A stretch of DNA of 64,000 bases from Marinobacter salinus. GTDB taxonomy: Bacteria > Pseudomonadota > Gammaproteobacteria > Pseudomonadales > Oleiphilaceae. A program made the position numbers and the translations under genes. Location of the stretch: the NCBI RefSeq assembly GCF_001854125.1, contig NZ_CP017715.1, positions 3,100,001-3,164,000 on the forward strand, in the 5' to 3' direction. Below the pieces are notes generated by a model. It saw nothing but the letters and a program-made list of their open reading frames with translations, did no database searches and was not told the origin of the DNA. Shown one piece after another: positions 33,633-39,602 of this stretch. Every line of letters begins with the position of its first letter. Position 1 is the stretch's first letter.

Positions 33633-34603
33633 TCAACCGGGCGCCGAACAACTGGCCCCAAACCGGTAACAGGAAAAGCACCGGTGATGCCGCAACATAA
33701 TGCGCTCATCCATGCTTTCCGCCAGCGACCCACCCAAATCGTACTGCGGATCGTCATCCACCAAAGTACAGGCATAGACCCGAACCTGGTCTCCCTTCTT
33801 GACCAGCATCCGTGTATAGGTGCACATAAAGTGGGAACGTGCCTCCTCCGTAGGATACTTCTCCATACACGTTTCCGTGATCTCCGGGCTACCGTCTTCC
33901 GACCCCGGTGTGCCCAGGTCCGGAAACGCGGTGAACGCCAGATTCTCTGGAATGCTCCAGGCCCGGAAAATGTCGCGGAATGCCGCCTCGACGTCCGCGG
34001 GGCTTTCCTCGGGATCCGTCTGGCGGGCGATTGAAACCTTGAAACCCTGTTCGATCAGCCAGTGAACACCCTCCAGGGCCTGATCAAAACTGCCTTCCCC
34101 CGATCCTTGTCATGACGGGCGCGATCCGGAAAATCCAGGCTGACACGGAAGTGGATCGGGTAGGGATTTTCCAGCAAGGGCAGCACCTGCGCCCGGCGCT
34201 TGAGCAACGGCTCGGTGGCGTTGGTAAGTACGAAGCAGGGACGGTGCTGACTGGCATAATCGAGAATATTGACAAAATCCCGGATCACAAATGGCTCACC
34301 GCCGGTGAAGGAAAACTGTTCCACGCCCATGTCGATGGCTTCATGGATGAACGGCTTCACATCACTCAACTTCATTCCCGGAATCCGGCCATCGCCGGGA
34401 TGGGAGCCTTCAAGGCAGAATGGGCAGGCCAGGTTGCAGGCCGTGCCGGTGTGGATCCACAGCTCTTTCAGCCTGTTCGCATCAATGTATCCACGCGGGT
34501 CGCCGTTGCGGGTATGAGTCCAGCTGTCGAATGCCCTGGGTTCCAGGACCTCCACGGCCGGAATACGTTTTCTGCGGGCCGTCGGGGTTTCAATCTGGGA
34601 CAT
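33633..34603 (-). pseudogene. Radical SAM protein gene with C-terminal Cys cluster, one-base frameshift
   Basis: ATG at 34603, preceded by AGGAG, begins a radical SAM enzyme with CNLACPFC (CxxxCxxC, SAM-cluster ligands), GVEQFSFTGGEPFV and a TIM-barrel body. The first frame stops at 34055, but one extra base in the C5 run at 34097-34101 restores a continuous frame to 33633 (323 residues). The restored C-terminus holds many cysteines (CTYTRM, VYACTLVDDD, CFSCYRFGASCS), suggesting SPASM/Twitch-type auxiliary iron-sulfur clusters. No recognised substrate class; it does not look like ArsS or a known peptide-modifying SPASM enzyme to me. A 13-base overlap with the upstream TVP38-flavoenzyme gene argues for one operon. 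Confidence 0.8.
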
Positions 34604-36779
34604 AGAGACTCCTCGGTGTTTTCGTGTCTTTGCCACGGCGCCAGCCGTGCAGCTTTTCCAGCAATTTCAGAATGCCGGCAGGGGCGTGGGCTCGCTTCCA
34701 TTCGCCGGCGGCGAATTTTGCGGATTCGTTCCAGGTCGGGTAGGGGTGGATGGTACCCAGAATCTTGTTCAGGCCCAGACCGTGCTTCATGGCCAAAGTA
34801 AACTCGGCCAGGATTTCACCGGCATGGGCACCAACCACCACCGCACCCAGTATCTTGTCCTTGCCTGGGGGTGTGAGCACCTTGATGAATCCATAGTCTT
34901 CGCTCTCCGCAATCGCCCGATCCAGATCGTCCAGGCCGTATCGGGTAACTTCAAAGGCAATGCCTTTCTCTGTGGCTTCGGCTTCGCTCAGCCCCACCCG
35001 GGCCACTTCCGGCGAGGTAAAAGTCACCCATGGCATCACCCGGTAGTCCACCCTGAACCGTTTGAACTGACCGAACAGGCCGTTCACCGCGGCATACCAG
35101 GCCTGATGCGCTGCCGCATGAGTGAACTGATAGGGGCCGGCCACATCGCCACAGGCAAACACGTTCGGATAACGCAGGCTCATGTCCTCTTCCACCGGCA
35201 CGGTGCCGTTAGGCAGGGGCTCGATACCAATTTTGTCGAGCCCGAGGCCTTTGGTATTTGCTGCACGCCCCACCGCCACCAGCACCTTATCGAAGGTAAT
35301 ACGAACCCGCTCGCCCTTATGCTCGCAGTAGACCACTTTCTCGCCTTCTTCGATGGCGAACTCTTTCGCCGCATGTCCCAGGCGAACGTCAATTCCATCA
35401 TTTTCGAACCGGGATTTCACCAGCTCGGATACATCACTGTCTTCTTTCGCCAACAACCGGTCGCCCATTTCCACCTGAATCACCTTGCTACCCAGACGGG
35501 CAAAGGCATGGGCCAGCTCGGAACCGATGGGACCACCGCCCAGCACCAGCAAACGCTCCGGCTGCTCCTGCAGAGCCCAGAGGTTGTCAGAATTCAAAGG
35601 ATCCATGTCAGCAAGCCCTGGAATCGGTGGCATGGCCGGTTTGCCACCTGTCGCAACAACAATACTCCGCGCCGTCAACCGTTCAGTGTGACCATCGGTG
35701 TGCCTGACCTCCAGCTCCCAGGGGGATACGAAGCTTGCCTCACCAGAGATGCAATCCACGCCCAGTTTGCGGTAGCGCTCAGGGGAATCGTGGGGCTCGA
35801 CCTTGGCAATCACGTCCTGAACGCGGTTCATGATGTTCTTGAACGAGCCTTTCACCGGCACTGACTCCAGACCGTAACGGTTGGCGTGACGAAGCGTATC
35901 CGCTGCTTTGGCACTTCGAATCAGAGCCTTGGAGGGAACACAACCGGTGTTGAGGCAGTCGCCACCCATCTTGTGCTTTTCGATCAGGGCCACCTTGGCC
36001 TTAACGGCTGCAGCGATGTAGGCGGAAACCAGCCCGGCAGAGCCGCCGCCAATAACCAGTAGGTTGTAGTCAAAATGCTCAGGCTTCTGCCAGCCGGAAT
36101 ACACTTTGCGGCGGCGAATAAAACCGACCACAAACTTGGCAATCAGGGGGAAGAGCCCAAGCAGGGCAAAAGACAGCAGCAGATCGGCAGAAACAATATC
36201 ACCGGTGGACTGGATCTGGCCAAGCTGGGTGCCGGCGTTCACATACACAAAGGTGCCCGGCAGCATGGCAACCCAGCTCACGAGAGCGTAGGTGCGCAGC
36301 TTCATGCCAGTCAGGCCCATGGCCAGGTTGATCAGGAAAAACGGAAAGACCGGCACCAGGCGCAGGGTCGCAAGATAGAAAGCCCCGTCCTTTTCGATGC
36401 CACGATCCATTTTCGCCACCGTCTCGGCATAGCGCCTGCGCAAGGTATCGCGCATCAGAAAGCGAGCCACCAGAAATGCGAGGGATGCCCCCACGGTTGA
36501 GGCGATGGAAACCGCGGCCAAACCGTAAAGGTTACCGAAGAAAGCACCACCGGCCAGGGTCATAATGGTAGCCCCGGGGAGTGACAGTGCTGTAACCACC
36601 ACATAGACCGCGACAAAACCAAACACCGCAACCACCAGGTTCTGACTGATCCAGTTATCCAGAACCTGTTGGTTTTCCTTGAGATTCTCAAGCGTTAGAA
36701 GCTCACCACCACCGCTGGCGATAAAACCGATGACGACAGCCGCAATCAACGCGACCAGAATCCATTTTTTCAATGTCAT
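34590..36779 (-). CDS. TVP38/TMEM64 membrane domain fused to pyridine-nucleotide disulfide oxidoreductase
   Basis: ATG at 36779 gives 729 residues. Residues ~1-220 form a TVP38/TMEM64 (SNARE-associated Golgi/DedA-like) membrane domain with LPGATIMTLAGGAFFGN and LRLVPVFPFFLINLAMGLTG. Residues ~240-729 form a mercuric-reductase/lipoamide-dehydrogenase-like flavoprotein: FAD site LLVIGGGSAGLVSAYIAA, redox-active pair GGDCLNTGCVPSKAL, NAD site LVLGGGPIGSELAHAF, and FACGDVAGPYQFTHAAAHQAWYAA. No N-terminal heavy-metal-associated domain or vicinal C-terminal Cys pair is seen, so it is unlikely to be a mercuric reductase itself. It probably moves electrons to a membrane-linked acceptor. Confidence 0.9.
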   Translation of the reverse strand: MTLKKWILVALIAAVVIGFIASGGGELLTLENLKENQQVLDNWISQNLVVAVFGFVAVYVVVTALSLPGATIMTLAGGAFFGNLYGLAAVSIASTVGASLAFLVARFLMRDTLRRRYAETVAKMDRGIEKDGAFYLATLRLVPVFPFFLINLAMGLTGMKLRTYALVSWVAMLPGTFVYVNAGTQLGQIQSTGDIVSADLLLSFALLGLFPLIAKFVVGFIRRRKVYSGWQKPEHFDYNLLVIGGGSAGLVSAYIAAAVKAKVALIEKHKMGGDCLNTGCVPSKALIRSAKAADTLRHANRYGLESVPVKGSFKNIMNRVQDVIAKVEPHDSPERYRKLGVDCISGEASFVSPWELEVRHTDGHTERLTARSIVVATGGKPAMPPIPGLADMDPLNSDNLWALQEQPERLLVLGGGPIGSELAHAFARLGSKVIQVEMGDRLLAKEDSDVSELVKSRFENDGIDVRLGHAAKEFAIEEGEKVVYCEHKGERVRITFDKVLVAVGRAANTKGLGLDKIGIEPLPNGTVPVEEDMSLRYPNVFACGDVAGPYQFTHAAAHQAWYAAVNGLFGQFKRFRVDYRVMPWVTFTSPEVARVGLSEAEATEKGIAFEVTRYGLDDLDRAIAESEDYGFIKVLTPPGKDKILGAVVVGAHAGEILAEFTLAMKHGLGLNKILGTIHPYPTWNESAKFAAGEWKRAHAPAGILKLLEKLHGWRRGKDTKTPRSLYVPD

Positions 36780-36972
36780 GAAATAATCCCTGCTAACCTG
36801 AACGTGATGCTGAAAAGACACGCCAGTCTCGGAAGTGTTACACCAGCCCTGTCGGTTTTGCTTACTTTACCGGTCTAATGGTGTTGTACGTCGTTCTTGC
36901 CGGCATTGTGTCAACGATTGCTCATGAATATCTAACAATTTGGTCACGGTCCCCTGATGGTGTGCCCCCCAG

Positions 36973-36982
36973 GGAACTTTTC
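36973..36982 (+). promoter_or_regulatory. Candidate ECF-type -35 element
   Basis: GGGAACTTTT about 58 bases before the ECF sigma gene resembles the GGAACTT -35 element recognised by many ECF sigma factors, which commonly autoregulate. The -10 region is not convincing. Confidence 0.3.
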
Positions 36983-37039
36983 GGCAGCTTTCAGAACTTA
37001 CTGCCATTCTTGAACAATTGCTCACAAAAGGGAACTGCC

Positions 37040-37657
37040 ATGGCCGCTCCAGCCCCCCTCGGGGAGGAAGCACTGATTCAGAGCATGAAAGCGGGAGACG
37101 ATCATTCCTATCAGGAGGCCGTGCGCACCTTTACGCCCGGTATGTTGGCGGTCGCCCGTTTCTACCTGGACCACTCAAGCGCCGAGGAAATCGTCCAGGA
37201 CTGCTGGGTCACCGTCATTGATGCCATCCACAAGTTCGAAGGCCGCTCCGGTCTGAAAACCTGGTTGCACCGCATCGTCGCCAACCGCTGCAAGAACCGG
37301 CTTCGGTCCAGCAACCGGGAAGTCCCCACGGATTTTTCCGAGAGCCTCGAGCCGGAACTGGCGGGACGTTTCAACGCCAAAGGCCGATGGGATCTGCCGC
37401 CCAAGATGCAATTCCACGACTCCGCAGACAAGTTGATGGAAAACGGCGCCCTCAGCGATTGCCTGGATAAACACCTTTCCGCCCTGCCAGAAACCCAGCG
37501 CTCAGCCCTGATGCTGTATGAAGCCCACCAGCACAAATCCGATGATGTCTGTAACATTCTGGATGTAAGCGCCTCTAACCTTCGTGTACTTTTACACCGT
37601 GCGAGGCAGAAAATCTTTCTGATGGTCGAAACCTTCCAGGAGACTGGCGAATGCTGA
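37040..37657 (+). CDS. ECF-family RNA polymerase sigma factor
   Basis: ATG at 37040 with AAGGGA upstream gives 205 residues. Region 2 is present (YQEAVRTFTPGMLAVARFYLDHSSAEEIVQDCWVTVIDAIHKFEGRSGLKTWLHRIVANRCKNRL) and region 4 as LSALPETQRSALMLYEAHQHKSDDVCNILDVSASNLRVLLHRARQKI. The length and motif set are typical ECF. The last seven bases overlap the start of an anti-sigma-like gene, a standard arrangement. Its natural signal may concern the adjacent cysteine-rich cytochrome unit; this is inference. Confidence 0.93.
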   Translation: MAAPAPLGEEALIQSMKAGDDHSYQEAVRTFTPGMLAVARFYLDHSSAEEIVQDCWVTVIDAIHKFEGRSGLKTWLHRIVANRCKNRLRSSNREVPTDFSESLEPELAGRFNAKGRWDLPPKMQFHDSADKLMENGALSDCLDKHLSALPETQRSALMLYEAHQHKSDDVCNILDVSASNLRVLLHRARQKIFLMVETFQETGEC

Positions 37658-37908
37658 TGTGCAGGGATCTGGCTGTGGTTGCCAGTGATTACATCGATGG
37701 CGAATTGGCCGGTCTGCAGAACCTGTCCGTTAAGATGCACCTGATGATGTGCAGGGACTGCCGAACCTTTATTGGCAACCTCCGGGCGAGCACCGAACTC
37801 ATGAAGGCGCACTCCTCCATTCGTCCGGATGAGGAATTTATGCGTCGGATTGATGAGCGGGTCGCCGAAGCCCTTAAGGCCAGGAAAGAAGATAGTGGCG
37901 ATGGGTAA
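37651..37908 (+). CDS. Zinc-finger (zf-HC2/ZAS-like) anti-sigma factor
   Basis: An 85-residue cytoplasmic protein. The motif HLMMCRDC (His-x3-Cys-x2-Cys) after an N-terminal CRDLAVVASDYIDGEL is the HxxxCxxC zinc-binding signature of ZAS anti-sigma factors. No TM segment. The gene overlaps the sigma gene by seven bases. It presumably binds and inhibits the preceding sigma factor, releasing it on oxidation or metal stress. Confidence 0.85.
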   Translation: MLMCRDLAVVASDYIDGELAGLQNLSVKMHLMMCRDCRTFIGNLRASTELMKAHSSIRPDEEFMRRIDERVAEALKARKEDSGDG

Positions 37909-37957: not shown

Positions 37958-38686
37958 CTACCCCTGGTGAATATCGCCCGATTGAGTCCTTGTTTGAAGT
38001 TCTGCTTCCAGTTTTTCTGCCCAGCTCTCAACGTCAATCGGTACTGTCCCTGTAATCTCCAGTGAACGGTCCTCAAGCACCTGCTCAAGACCCTCTTCCT
38101 GCCATTTTGAGACAACCTCGTCCCGGTGATGAAGCAAGGCTTCGATCTGTGGTCTGAAACAACGCACCATCGCCGTCAGCCAACGATTCACCGGCCAGCT
38201 CGGATAGGCGTGGTCCATGGCAAACTGGTCGAGTGCAGTCACGATCACCCCCGCTGGCAGCCAGCTTTCATCCGTCACCCAGCGGTTAACCGCAAACAAA
38301 TCGGTCGGGTAGCCCCAGGCGTCCATGGAAACGGCAACAAGGTGAGCGACACGATCCTCTCCGGTCGGGCCCAAAGCCGGCTCAAGACCTTCGGGCAGTG
38401 CCGGGTTGCGAAGGAAAAGATGAAAATGCCCGTGCTCATCATGATCGTCCCGATGGGCATGATAGTAATACTGGGACGCTGTATCACTATCATAGACGTC
38501 GTCCTTCGGGTAATGATCCATTTCATAAAATGGACCCTGCCCCCTCAGTACTTCACCGACTATATTCAATCCCCCTTTTTGTAGTACCCGGTAGCATTCC
38601 CGAATATCGTCAATCGCCGCCAGGCTACTCAATAACTGGCTCCGACCAAGGCTCGCCAGTTTGGGGACCTCAAGCTCTGTCACCAT
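37958..38686 (-). CDS. DUF6969-like His-rich conserved protein
   Basis: ATG at 38686, with AAGGAG upstream, gives 242 residues; the upstream extension to 38752 has no better start. No signal peptide. A conspicuous segment, YYYHAHRDDHDEHGHFHLFL, is dense in His and Asp and could bind metal. I think this is the DUF6969 family but that is memory of pattern, not a search. It is the second gene after the cysteine-repeat cytochrome, with a 67-base gap on the same strand. Confidence 0.65.
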   Translation of the reverse strand: MVTELEVPKLASLGRSQLLSSLAAIDDIRECYRVLQKGGLNIVGEVLRGQGPFYEMDHYPKDDVYDSDTASQYYYHAHRDDHDEHGHFHLFLRNPALPEGLEPALGPTGEDRVAHLVAVSMDAWGYPTDLFAVNRWVTDESWLPAGVIVTALDQFAMDHAYPSWPVNRWLTAMVRCFRPQIEALLHHRDEVVSKWQEEGLEQVLEDRSLEITGTVPIDVESWAEKLEAELQTRTQSGDIHQG

Positions 38687-38753
38687 CTCTCGTCTCCTTG
38701 TAATGCGGCCCCGGCATAACCGCAGGCCGCGCTTGTCCGCCTTTTTCGCCAAG

Positions 38754-39602
38754 CTATGCAGCTGAACCTGTCAGGTCCTGTCCTGCATGTGCTGAACAGG
38801 GGTTCTTAACCGCACAGGGATTTTTTGTAGCACATGGGTTTTTCGTCGCACAGGGATTTTTTCCAGCGCACGGATTGCAGCCTCCGCATTTGCCTCTTTT
38901 AAGAGCACAGGGATTAGTTGCAAGCTGCTTGTGGACCTTACCCATATAGGCTGTCAGGGCCGCCAGTTGCTCTCCGTCCCATTCAAGAGGCTCGGCTGCC
39001 ATCGGCTGCACCATGCAAATCTGGACCATTTCATCCAGATGCACCGTATCCAGACCAAAGATATCACGGGCCATTGCTACAGAATGCGGGTAGGCGTTGG
39101 CGAAGGTCGCGTTGTAGCCCGCTCCGTTGTTGTGGCAGGTCGAGCATGACAGGCCATTAGCGCTGAGGGAGGGGTCGTTAAACAGCTTCTCGCCCATTGC
39201 CATCAGTTTGCACGGATTGCCCTCATACGGCTGATAGCTGACAGGCCGGGTCACCTTTTTAGCCGCACAGGGATTGGGTTTGGCGCCGCACTTACCCGCT
39301 GCTGCACACGGGTTGCACCCCTTCACTGCACAGGGATTACAGCCCTTGGTGGCGCACGGGTTCTTCGTGGCACAGGGATTTTTGGTCGCACATGGGTTTT
39401 TGGCCGCGCATGGATTGCAACCGGCCTTACAGTGTTGCCCGGCTTTGCACTTGCTCTTACAGAGGGAACACGGGCTGCAGGCCGCAACCGCCAGCCCGCC
39501 GTGGCCGAGCATGGCAGTCATCAGAGCTGCAGACCACCAGGCAGTGCACCGATGTTCACAGGAACTGCGAATGGCTTTCCTCAGAGGATGTATTGTGGAC
39601 AT
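38754..39602 (-). CDS. Exported cytochrome c-like protein with Cys-rich NPCATK hexapeptide repeats
   Basis: A 282-residue protein with an N-terminal export signal (AALMTAMLGHGGLAVA, cleavage near residue 40). Mature residues 42-112 hold 16 cysteines, many in NPCATK/NPCAAK hexapeptides or GCNPCA units; residues 230-269 hold another 8. Between them lies one class I-like cytochrome c domain with CSTCH heme motif at 153-157, and a possible distal Met near ICMVQPMAAEPL. The cysteines would have to stay reduced, be disulfide-bonded or hold metal in the periplasm. ATG at 39602 follows AGGGAGAG. Not a known copper-storage protein to me; a novel combination. Confidence 0.85.
   Translation of the reverse strand: MSTIHPLRKAIRSSCEHRCTAWWSAALMTAMLGHGGLAVAACSPCSLCKSKCKAGQHCKAGCNPCAAKNPCATKNPCATKNPCATKGCNPCAVKGCNPCAAAGKCGAKPNPCAAKKVTRPVSYQPYEGNPCKLMAMGEKLFNDPSLSANGLSCSTCHNNGAGYNATFANAYPHSVAMARDIFGLDTVHLDEMVQICMVQPMAAEPLEWDGEQLAALTAYMGKVHKQLATNPCALKRGKCGGCNPCAGKNPCATKNPCATKNPCAVKNPCSAHAGQDLTGSAA
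38793..38915 (-). repeat. C-terminal cysteine-repeat array (NPCATK units)
   Basis: Residues 230-270 of the cytochrome-like protein repeat NPCA-T/V/G-K at six-residue spacing, giving an 18-base period in DNA with 8 cysteines. Confidence 0.8.
39261..39419 (-). repeat. N-terminal cysteine-repeat array (NPCATK units)
   Basis: Residues 62-114 repeat NPCA-T/A-K and GCNPCA units with a dominant 18-base DNA period. The DNA-level similarity of neighbouring units suggests expansion by slippage or recombination. Confidence 0.8.

Follow-up and report, generated by a model that had tools for sequence, protein, structure and literature searches.

The stretch of DNA analysed, hereafter the window, comprises 64,000 nucleotides of contig NZ_CP017715.1 of Marinobacter salinus (positions 3,100,001 to 3,164,000, G000:C1:3100001-3164000 in our genome collection), whose genome is complete (4.1 Mb). 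The locus of interest is formed by two genes on the minus strand, one encoding an exported cytochrome with cysteine arrays on both sides of its heme domain and the other a DUF6969 protein, whose start lies 67 bp past the stop codon of the cytochrome gene on the same strand. The features are the following:

38754..39602, minus strand: exported monoheme c-type cytochrome of 282 aa with N- and C-terminal Cys-repeat arrays (ORF and translation, Pfam, AlphaFold2)
39480..39602, minus strand: signal region, residues 1-41, by reading of the sequence (hydrophobic stretch ending in LAVAA/C; type I cleavage or lipobox)
39267..39479, minus strand: N-terminal Cys array, residues 42-112, with 16 Cys and 7 NPC units (shuffle control)
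38919..39260, minus strand: cytochrome core predicted to be SoxA/TsdA-like, residues 115-228 (Pfam, invariant columns, model)
39132..39146, minus strand: CSTCH heme-attachment motif, residues 153-157 (CxxCH invariant in 34 diverse relatives)
39015..39017, minus strand: Cys196, candidate distal heme ligand (invariant in alignment A2; spacing counts)
38793..38915, minus strand: C-terminal Cys array, residues 230-270, with 8 Cys and 6 NPC units
37958..38686, minus strand: DUF6969 gene, 242 aa, with no signal peptide seen (Pfam, AlphaFold2)
38414..38464, minus strand: YHxH...EHGHFHxF cluster of DUF6969, residues 75-91, putative metal site (invariant in the 57 sequences of alignment A1)

The cytochrome contains 30 cysteines. 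The signal region has 2 of them, residues 42-112 have 16 and residues 232-269 have 8; the others are residue 131, the pair 153/156 of the heme motif, and residue 196. An earlier sequence-only reading of this DNA had described 16 array cysteines ahead of a single CSTCH heme domain, 8 more after it and an export signal; the counts are right, the motif is present and the N-terminal hydrophobic signal is seen in the sequence. The same reading took the arrays for cysteine hexapeptides. The repeats are real, since NPC occurs 14 times, whereas the mature protein shuffled 20,000 times contained it 0.2 times on average and at most 3 times, but not all are strict hexapeptides: the 13 NPC units of the arrays are interspersed with CSPC, CSLC, KCKAGQHCKAGC and KGC units. 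Scans for promoters and terminators gave no signal above chance.

The adjacent gene, described earlier as DUF6969-like, encodes a genuine full-length DUF6969 protein. The PF22308 profile matched it with an E value of 3.5e-82 (275 bits against a cut-off of 27) over the whole domain, positions 2-201 of 201. The segment dense in His and Asp that had also been pointed out is real (His/Asp/Glu-rich), and nearly all of its histidines are invariant in the family. Residues Y75, H76, H78, E84, H85, G86, H87, F88, H89, H115, N134, and W136 are common to the 57 DUF6969 sequences, and this invariant His/Glu cluster reads as a putative metal site. AlphaFold2 predicted the protein with confidence (pLDDT 95.3, pTM 0.92). 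When compared with the PDB, the model gave no significant fold match (best Foldseek E 0.55, best VIA-align Z 4.5), which does not by itself prove a new fold, and the sequence gave no match. No MNIO structure was found among the matches listed, although a relation to these enzymes may still exist. Considering that no signal peptide is visible in DUF6969, any action of this protein on the repeats would most likely take place before export.

The cytochrome core and its relation to SoxA and TsdA

The core of the cytochrome matched the Pfam family SoxA-TsdA_cyt-c (PF21342; E 7.9e-9, 35.8 bits against a gathering cut-off of 27), while the score against the SoxA equivalog of NCBIfam, TIGR04484, stayed far below the threshold (31 bits against a cut-off of 110). 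The AlphaFold2 model of the core (pLDDT 93) was compared with known structures, and the nine best were all SoxA or TsdA, with VIA-align Z scores from 9.4 to 8.2, the next one having 6.7; the highest value corresponded to SoxA 1h31 and those for TsdA were 8.2-8.7. Foldseek also led to SoxA/TsdA, with an E value of 3e-3 and a probability of 1.0. The core is thus predicted, from the model, to fold like SoxA/TsdA.

An alignment of 34 diverse relatives shows no variation in the heme motif, in the Cys of VQ(I/L/F)C or at several His and Met positions. The distance between the heme His and this Cys is 39 residues in most relatives, and that from the first heme Cys is 43 in 89 of 113 aligned rows. In the TsdA of C. 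jejuni the heme ligands are His99 and Cys138 (PMC6879331), which are also 39 residues apart, as are the heme His and Cys196 of the window cytochrome. Cys196, being invariant and at the CjTsdA spacing, is therefore a candidate heme ligand, although the core also has invariant Met and His residues. The alignment with SoxA 1h31 pairs the cytochrome Cys with a SoxA Cys, a pairing that carries little weight by itself (domain i-Evalue 13). An equal spacing to the TsdA of A. vinosum was considered and discarded, given that His53 and Cys96 are 43 residues apart in that protein and the corresponding distance is 39 here.

The activity of TsdA requires Arg109 and Arg119, located near the ligating Cys (PMC6879331). 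No Arg after the candidate ligand Cys is invariant or near-invariant in alignments A2 or A3, so it would be unsafe to take this cytochrome for a thiosulfate dehydrogenase, and a classical conjugation of thiosulfate appears doubtful from its sequence. Neither SoxX nor SoxYZ was seen in the neighbourhood of the cytochrome.

Association of DUF6969 with Cys-repeat proteins

About a hundred loci with this core were collected by a scan of genome contigs and a search within the genus. The same core bears two kinds of tails, one made of Cys repeats such as NPCAxK, the other of AEGE repeats, which are acidic and bring no extra Cys; the latter replace the Cys repeats in other Marinobacter and in Halomonas (L031-L079, for example L031:7659-8345). 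The sequence-only reading had proposed to ask how often a DUF6969-like gene adjoins NPC-repeat cytochromes. In the scan loci DUF6969 was found directly downstream of 30 of the 36 Cys-tailed homologues and of none of the 41 AEGE-tailed ones (Fisher p 9e-16, not corrected for descent). The six Cys-tailed genes lacking it at their side belong to Accumulibacter, Rokubacteria, and Tectomicrobia MAGs, and a DUF6969 gene at another place in the genome was found for all three unpaired Accumulibacter and for one of the Rokubacteria. It was absent from the five AEGE-type genomes tested. Within 124 Marinobacter genomes, 30 of the 31 having a strict NPC-repeat pattern in their DNA have DUF6969, against 3 of the 93 without the pattern (Fisher p 3e-24, not corrected for descent), and these three (G032, G095, and G106) turned out to have Cys-type cytochrome genes missed by the pattern, one of them partial. 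The pairing of DUF6969 with the Cys arrays is strongly conserved and, both in homologues and in Marinobacter genomes, supports well the view of DUF6969 as their dedicated partner.

The cytochrome and DUF6969 genes form one cassette. In Cys-type Marinobacter they occupy the whole interval from a DUF3179-like gene (cluster 5; the label is a reading of its sequence) to an anti-sigma gene (cluster 3), and in eight AEGE-type loci this site is empty, with the same flanks 9-33 bp apart. The cassette adjoins a pair formed by an ECF sigma factor and a zinc-finger anti-sigma factor (window 36878-37908, plus strand), which is also present where the cassette is absent. Further along, at 34590-36821 on the minus strand, there is a VTT membrane domain fused to a lipoamide-dehydrogenase/MerA-like flavoprotein. 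In Marinobacter mobilis the cytochrome-DUF6969 region appears on two contigs (L010 and L011; G037 contigs C8 and C9) with identical match figures, corresponding to a recent duplication or an assembly artefact.

DUF6969 was also observed beside other scaffolds. The source genome encodes a second NPC-repeat protein, a putative lipoprotein with a DUF442/BLH-phosphatase-like domain (G000:C1:1441073-1443107; L002, L228), whose operon also encodes a sulfur transporter in two halves, one PmpB-like and one PmpA-like. Strong matches to it were obtained in ten Marinobacter genomes, all of them DUF6969-positive: in seven a second DUF6969 follows directly (PmpB-PmpA-NPC-DUF442-DUF6969), and in three, the source genome included, the DUF6969 of the cytochrome cassette is the only one. 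At a larger scale DUF6969 was found in 30 of 369 genomes of the class sample and 20 of 398 of the phylum sample. Its neighbours across both samples include small exported peptides with repeats of NPCAAK, RGGNPCAPSA, GGGNPCAPG, NPCSLDED, SPCGL, KPCAAK, CGAK, or GCCGCC, as well as Cys-tailed cytochromes; P460 cytochromes with NPC-repeat N-terminal regions also adjoin it (L220:7208-8203 and L295:4747-5838). Tiny exported peptides with GCCGCCGCC, CAATCAAT, CCAAEG, or CAAC repeats were seen directly upstream of DUF6969 at L208:8924-9115, L199:6483-6698, L288, and L289.

With a mechanical finder, which accepted any exported Cys-repeat ORF on the same strand within 1.5 kb of the anchor, such an ORF was obtained near DUF6969 in 42 of 56 loci; for control positions taken from these regions the figure was 10 of 210. 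The calls at L192 and L297 were spurious, the real peptides there being read by eye, and the finder missed L204, L212, L214, L216, and L296 (contig end, too few Cys or other strand). After reading the misses by hand, 5 of the 56 loci have no Cys-repeat candidate. In the tree of DUF6969 the distribution of the members paired with the cytochrome requires three or more changes along branches with good support, from which it follows that scaffolds have been exchanged. DUF6969 follows the Cys repeats rather than the cytochrome core.

Sulfur-gene neighbourhoods and possible roles

In the class sample a YeeE/YedE-type transporter (PF04143) is present in 15 of the 30 DUF6969 loci and an exported rhodanese in 14 of them, the gene order being YeeE/YedE transporter, Cys peptide, DUF6969, and rhodanese. 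Locus L286 of the phylum sample shows PmpB-PmpA-NPC peptide-DUF6969-rhodanese, a rhodanese-transporter pair lies upstream of several Marinobacter cytochrome loci, and in Accumulibacter loci the transporter is downstream. The SulfT counts in the 16-kb background loci are an unclean control, given that several of the matches themselves adjoin Cys-type cytochromes. Proteins of the YeeE family take in thiosulfate or sulfane sulfur, it has been proposed that PmpA and PmpB each correspond to one half of such a protein, and the sulfane sulfur of thiosulfate reaches the cytoplasm by unknown means (PMC11582611). Taking into account these neighbourhoods together with the SoxA/TsdA-like core, sulfur chemistry is the most economical setting.

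The best explanation, to which we would give an even chance, is that DUF6969 depends on a metal to mature or load exported carriers with Cys repeats, and that these carriers serve sulfur chemistry in the periplasm, which is more probable than a role in copper buffering. The cytochrome would be made with a signal peptide and then exported, its heme domain standing between flexible NPCAxK-type arrays. Before export DUF6969 would most likely bind a metal and mature or load the repeat cysteines, as MNIOs do for bufferins; that it matures or loads the arrays is plausible. In the periplasm the array cysteines would most likely accept sulfane sulfur, or groups derived from thiosulfate, and hand them on, while the heme, presumably ligated by a thiolate, would take away electrons, so that the window cytochrome would be a sulfur acceptor and an electron outlet in one protein. 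In relatives the rhodanese and the YeeE-type transporter may then carry the sulfur inwards. We infer that DUF6969 would be an enzyme, that it would act on the cysteines and that sulfur would be the cargo. Several observations weigh against this explanation: some DUF6969-linked scaffolds are P460 cytochromes, which belong to nitrogen chemistry; the window locus has no adjoining sulfur gene and the cytochrome lacks equivalents of Arg109 and Arg119 of TsdA; and the NPC repeats of DUF6969-free genomes are Met/His-rich, more like copper sites. The loci where no Cys-repeat gene was found (5/56) count against it as well.

The main rival, somewhat unlikely in our view, is that the periplasmic arrays serve to bind a soft metal, Cu(I) or another, which the heme would oxidise or sense, with DUF6969 improving the ligands or loading the metal, as in a non-MNIO bufferin. 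The density of periplasmic cysteines would suit this role, a small exported Cys-rich precursor with an enzyme recalls the bufferins (PMC12452194), and a cupredoxin-like gene, identified by reading its sequence, occurs in two Accumulibacter loci. Repeats such as NPCGMKMH and NPCDKGKHH exist in DUF6969-free relatives, and it is on account of these Met/His-rich repeats by multiheme cytochromes that copper buffering is kept as the main rival. However, the core is SoxA/TsdA-like, the source genome has no MNIO match and those neighbours of DUF6969 that were recognised are sulfur transporters and rhodaneses. The sequence-only reading had favoured a metal-buffering or redox-capacitor protein with DUF6969 as its partner; on the basis of these data the partnership stands, whereas metal is the less favoured cargo.

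Some loci of the DUF6969-free relatives deserve a description. Met/His-rich NPC-repeat cytochromes or peptides were seen beside a multiheme c554/MtrC-like cytochrome in L181, L182, L183, L185, and L186, all without DUF6969, and in L181 a YeeE-like transporter follows. In a DUF6969-free genome an MNIO gene (G233:C176:20119-20913) is located about 8 kb from an NPC-repeat cytochrome.

It is improbable, to a further degree, that DUF6969 is a chaperone and not an enzyme, a binding partner that prevents the Cys repeats from folding or becoming oxidised before they are exported by Sec, the arrays being acceptors of sulfur or in redox reactions. Its lack of a visible signal peptide and of an enzyme-indicating fold match would agree with this, and a loose recognition fits the pairing with repeats as different as NPCAAK, RGGNPCAPSA, CGAK, and GCCGCC, but the invariant YHxH...EHGHFH...H cluster is hard to account for without a metal site or catalysis. 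That the tails are low-complexity spacers or disulfide-crosslinking tethers, linked to DUF6969 only by the shared ancestry of a mobile cassette, is very improbable: the tail is exchangeable for AEGE repeats on the same core in other Marinobacter and Halomonas and both genes of the cassette come and go together, yet DUF6969 pairs with unrelated Cys-repeat scaffolds and is absent with AEGE tails.

Comparison with known systems

With SoxA and TsdA the window cytochrome shares the core fold, the Pfam family and the invariant Cys at the CjTsdA spacing; it differs in that its family has a single heme, Cys-repeat or acidic tails and no conserved Arg after the Cys. As regards the YeeE/YedE loci (TsuA, SoxT, PmpAB), many DUF6969/Cys-repeat genes share an operon with these transporters and rhodanese, whereas the window locus has no transporter; in the papers searched, no account of either the Cys-repeat peptide or DUF6969 was found. 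If the proposal is true, a periplasmic Cys-repeat carrier in operon with a YeeE-type importer and rhodanese would be a testable candidate for the transfer step of sulfane sulfur, and the short NPC peptides offer easy test material.

SoxYZ carries one Cys on a GGCGG arm. The role proposed here is the same, a periplasmic sulfur carrier on a flexible Cys arm near a SoxA-type heme, without any claim of homology; the differences are the tens of Cys in repeats and the fusion of carrier and cytochrome.

The association of DUF6969 with exported Cys-repeat proteins across many Proteobacteria, mostly among sulfur genes, points to an undescribed way to build or load Cys-rich carriers. In the open literature searched, which did not cover subscription papers, no description of DUF6969 or NPC-repeat proteins was found, and within that literature DUF6969, the enzyme candidate, and its putative repeat substrates appear to have no assigned role; the paper on the MNIO landscape mentions neither. 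With somewhat less than an even chance, DUF6969 may represent enzymes of a new family that modify proteins in a metal-dependent manner, have no relation to MNIOs and act on NPCA/PCA-type Cys repeats of many exported scaffolds, which would give a class of periplasmic multi-Cys sulfur carriers, one of them fused to its own SoxA-like cytochrome.

The likeness to the MNIO (DUF692)/bufferin systems consists in a non-exported partner gene beside an exported Cys-rich protein or peptide, with several types of precursors. Unlike MNIOs, the window DUF6969 protein matches, at a Pfam threshold of E 0.1, PF22308 only and not PF05114, which had no match in the whole source genome. Unlike bufferins, the repeats are of the NPCA type, the window cytochrome has no DUF2282/Buf1 Pfam match at E 0.1, and DUF6969 neighbours sulfur genes rather than those of copper homeostasis. 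A further trait of bufferins is the formation of copper-binding thiooxazoles from Cys. The enzyme candidate, its fold and the putative substrate repeats fall in no family tested, with a general plan that resembles that of MNIOs and bufferins; if the proposal is true, the system would constitute a second, independent route to modified Cys-rich exported peptides.
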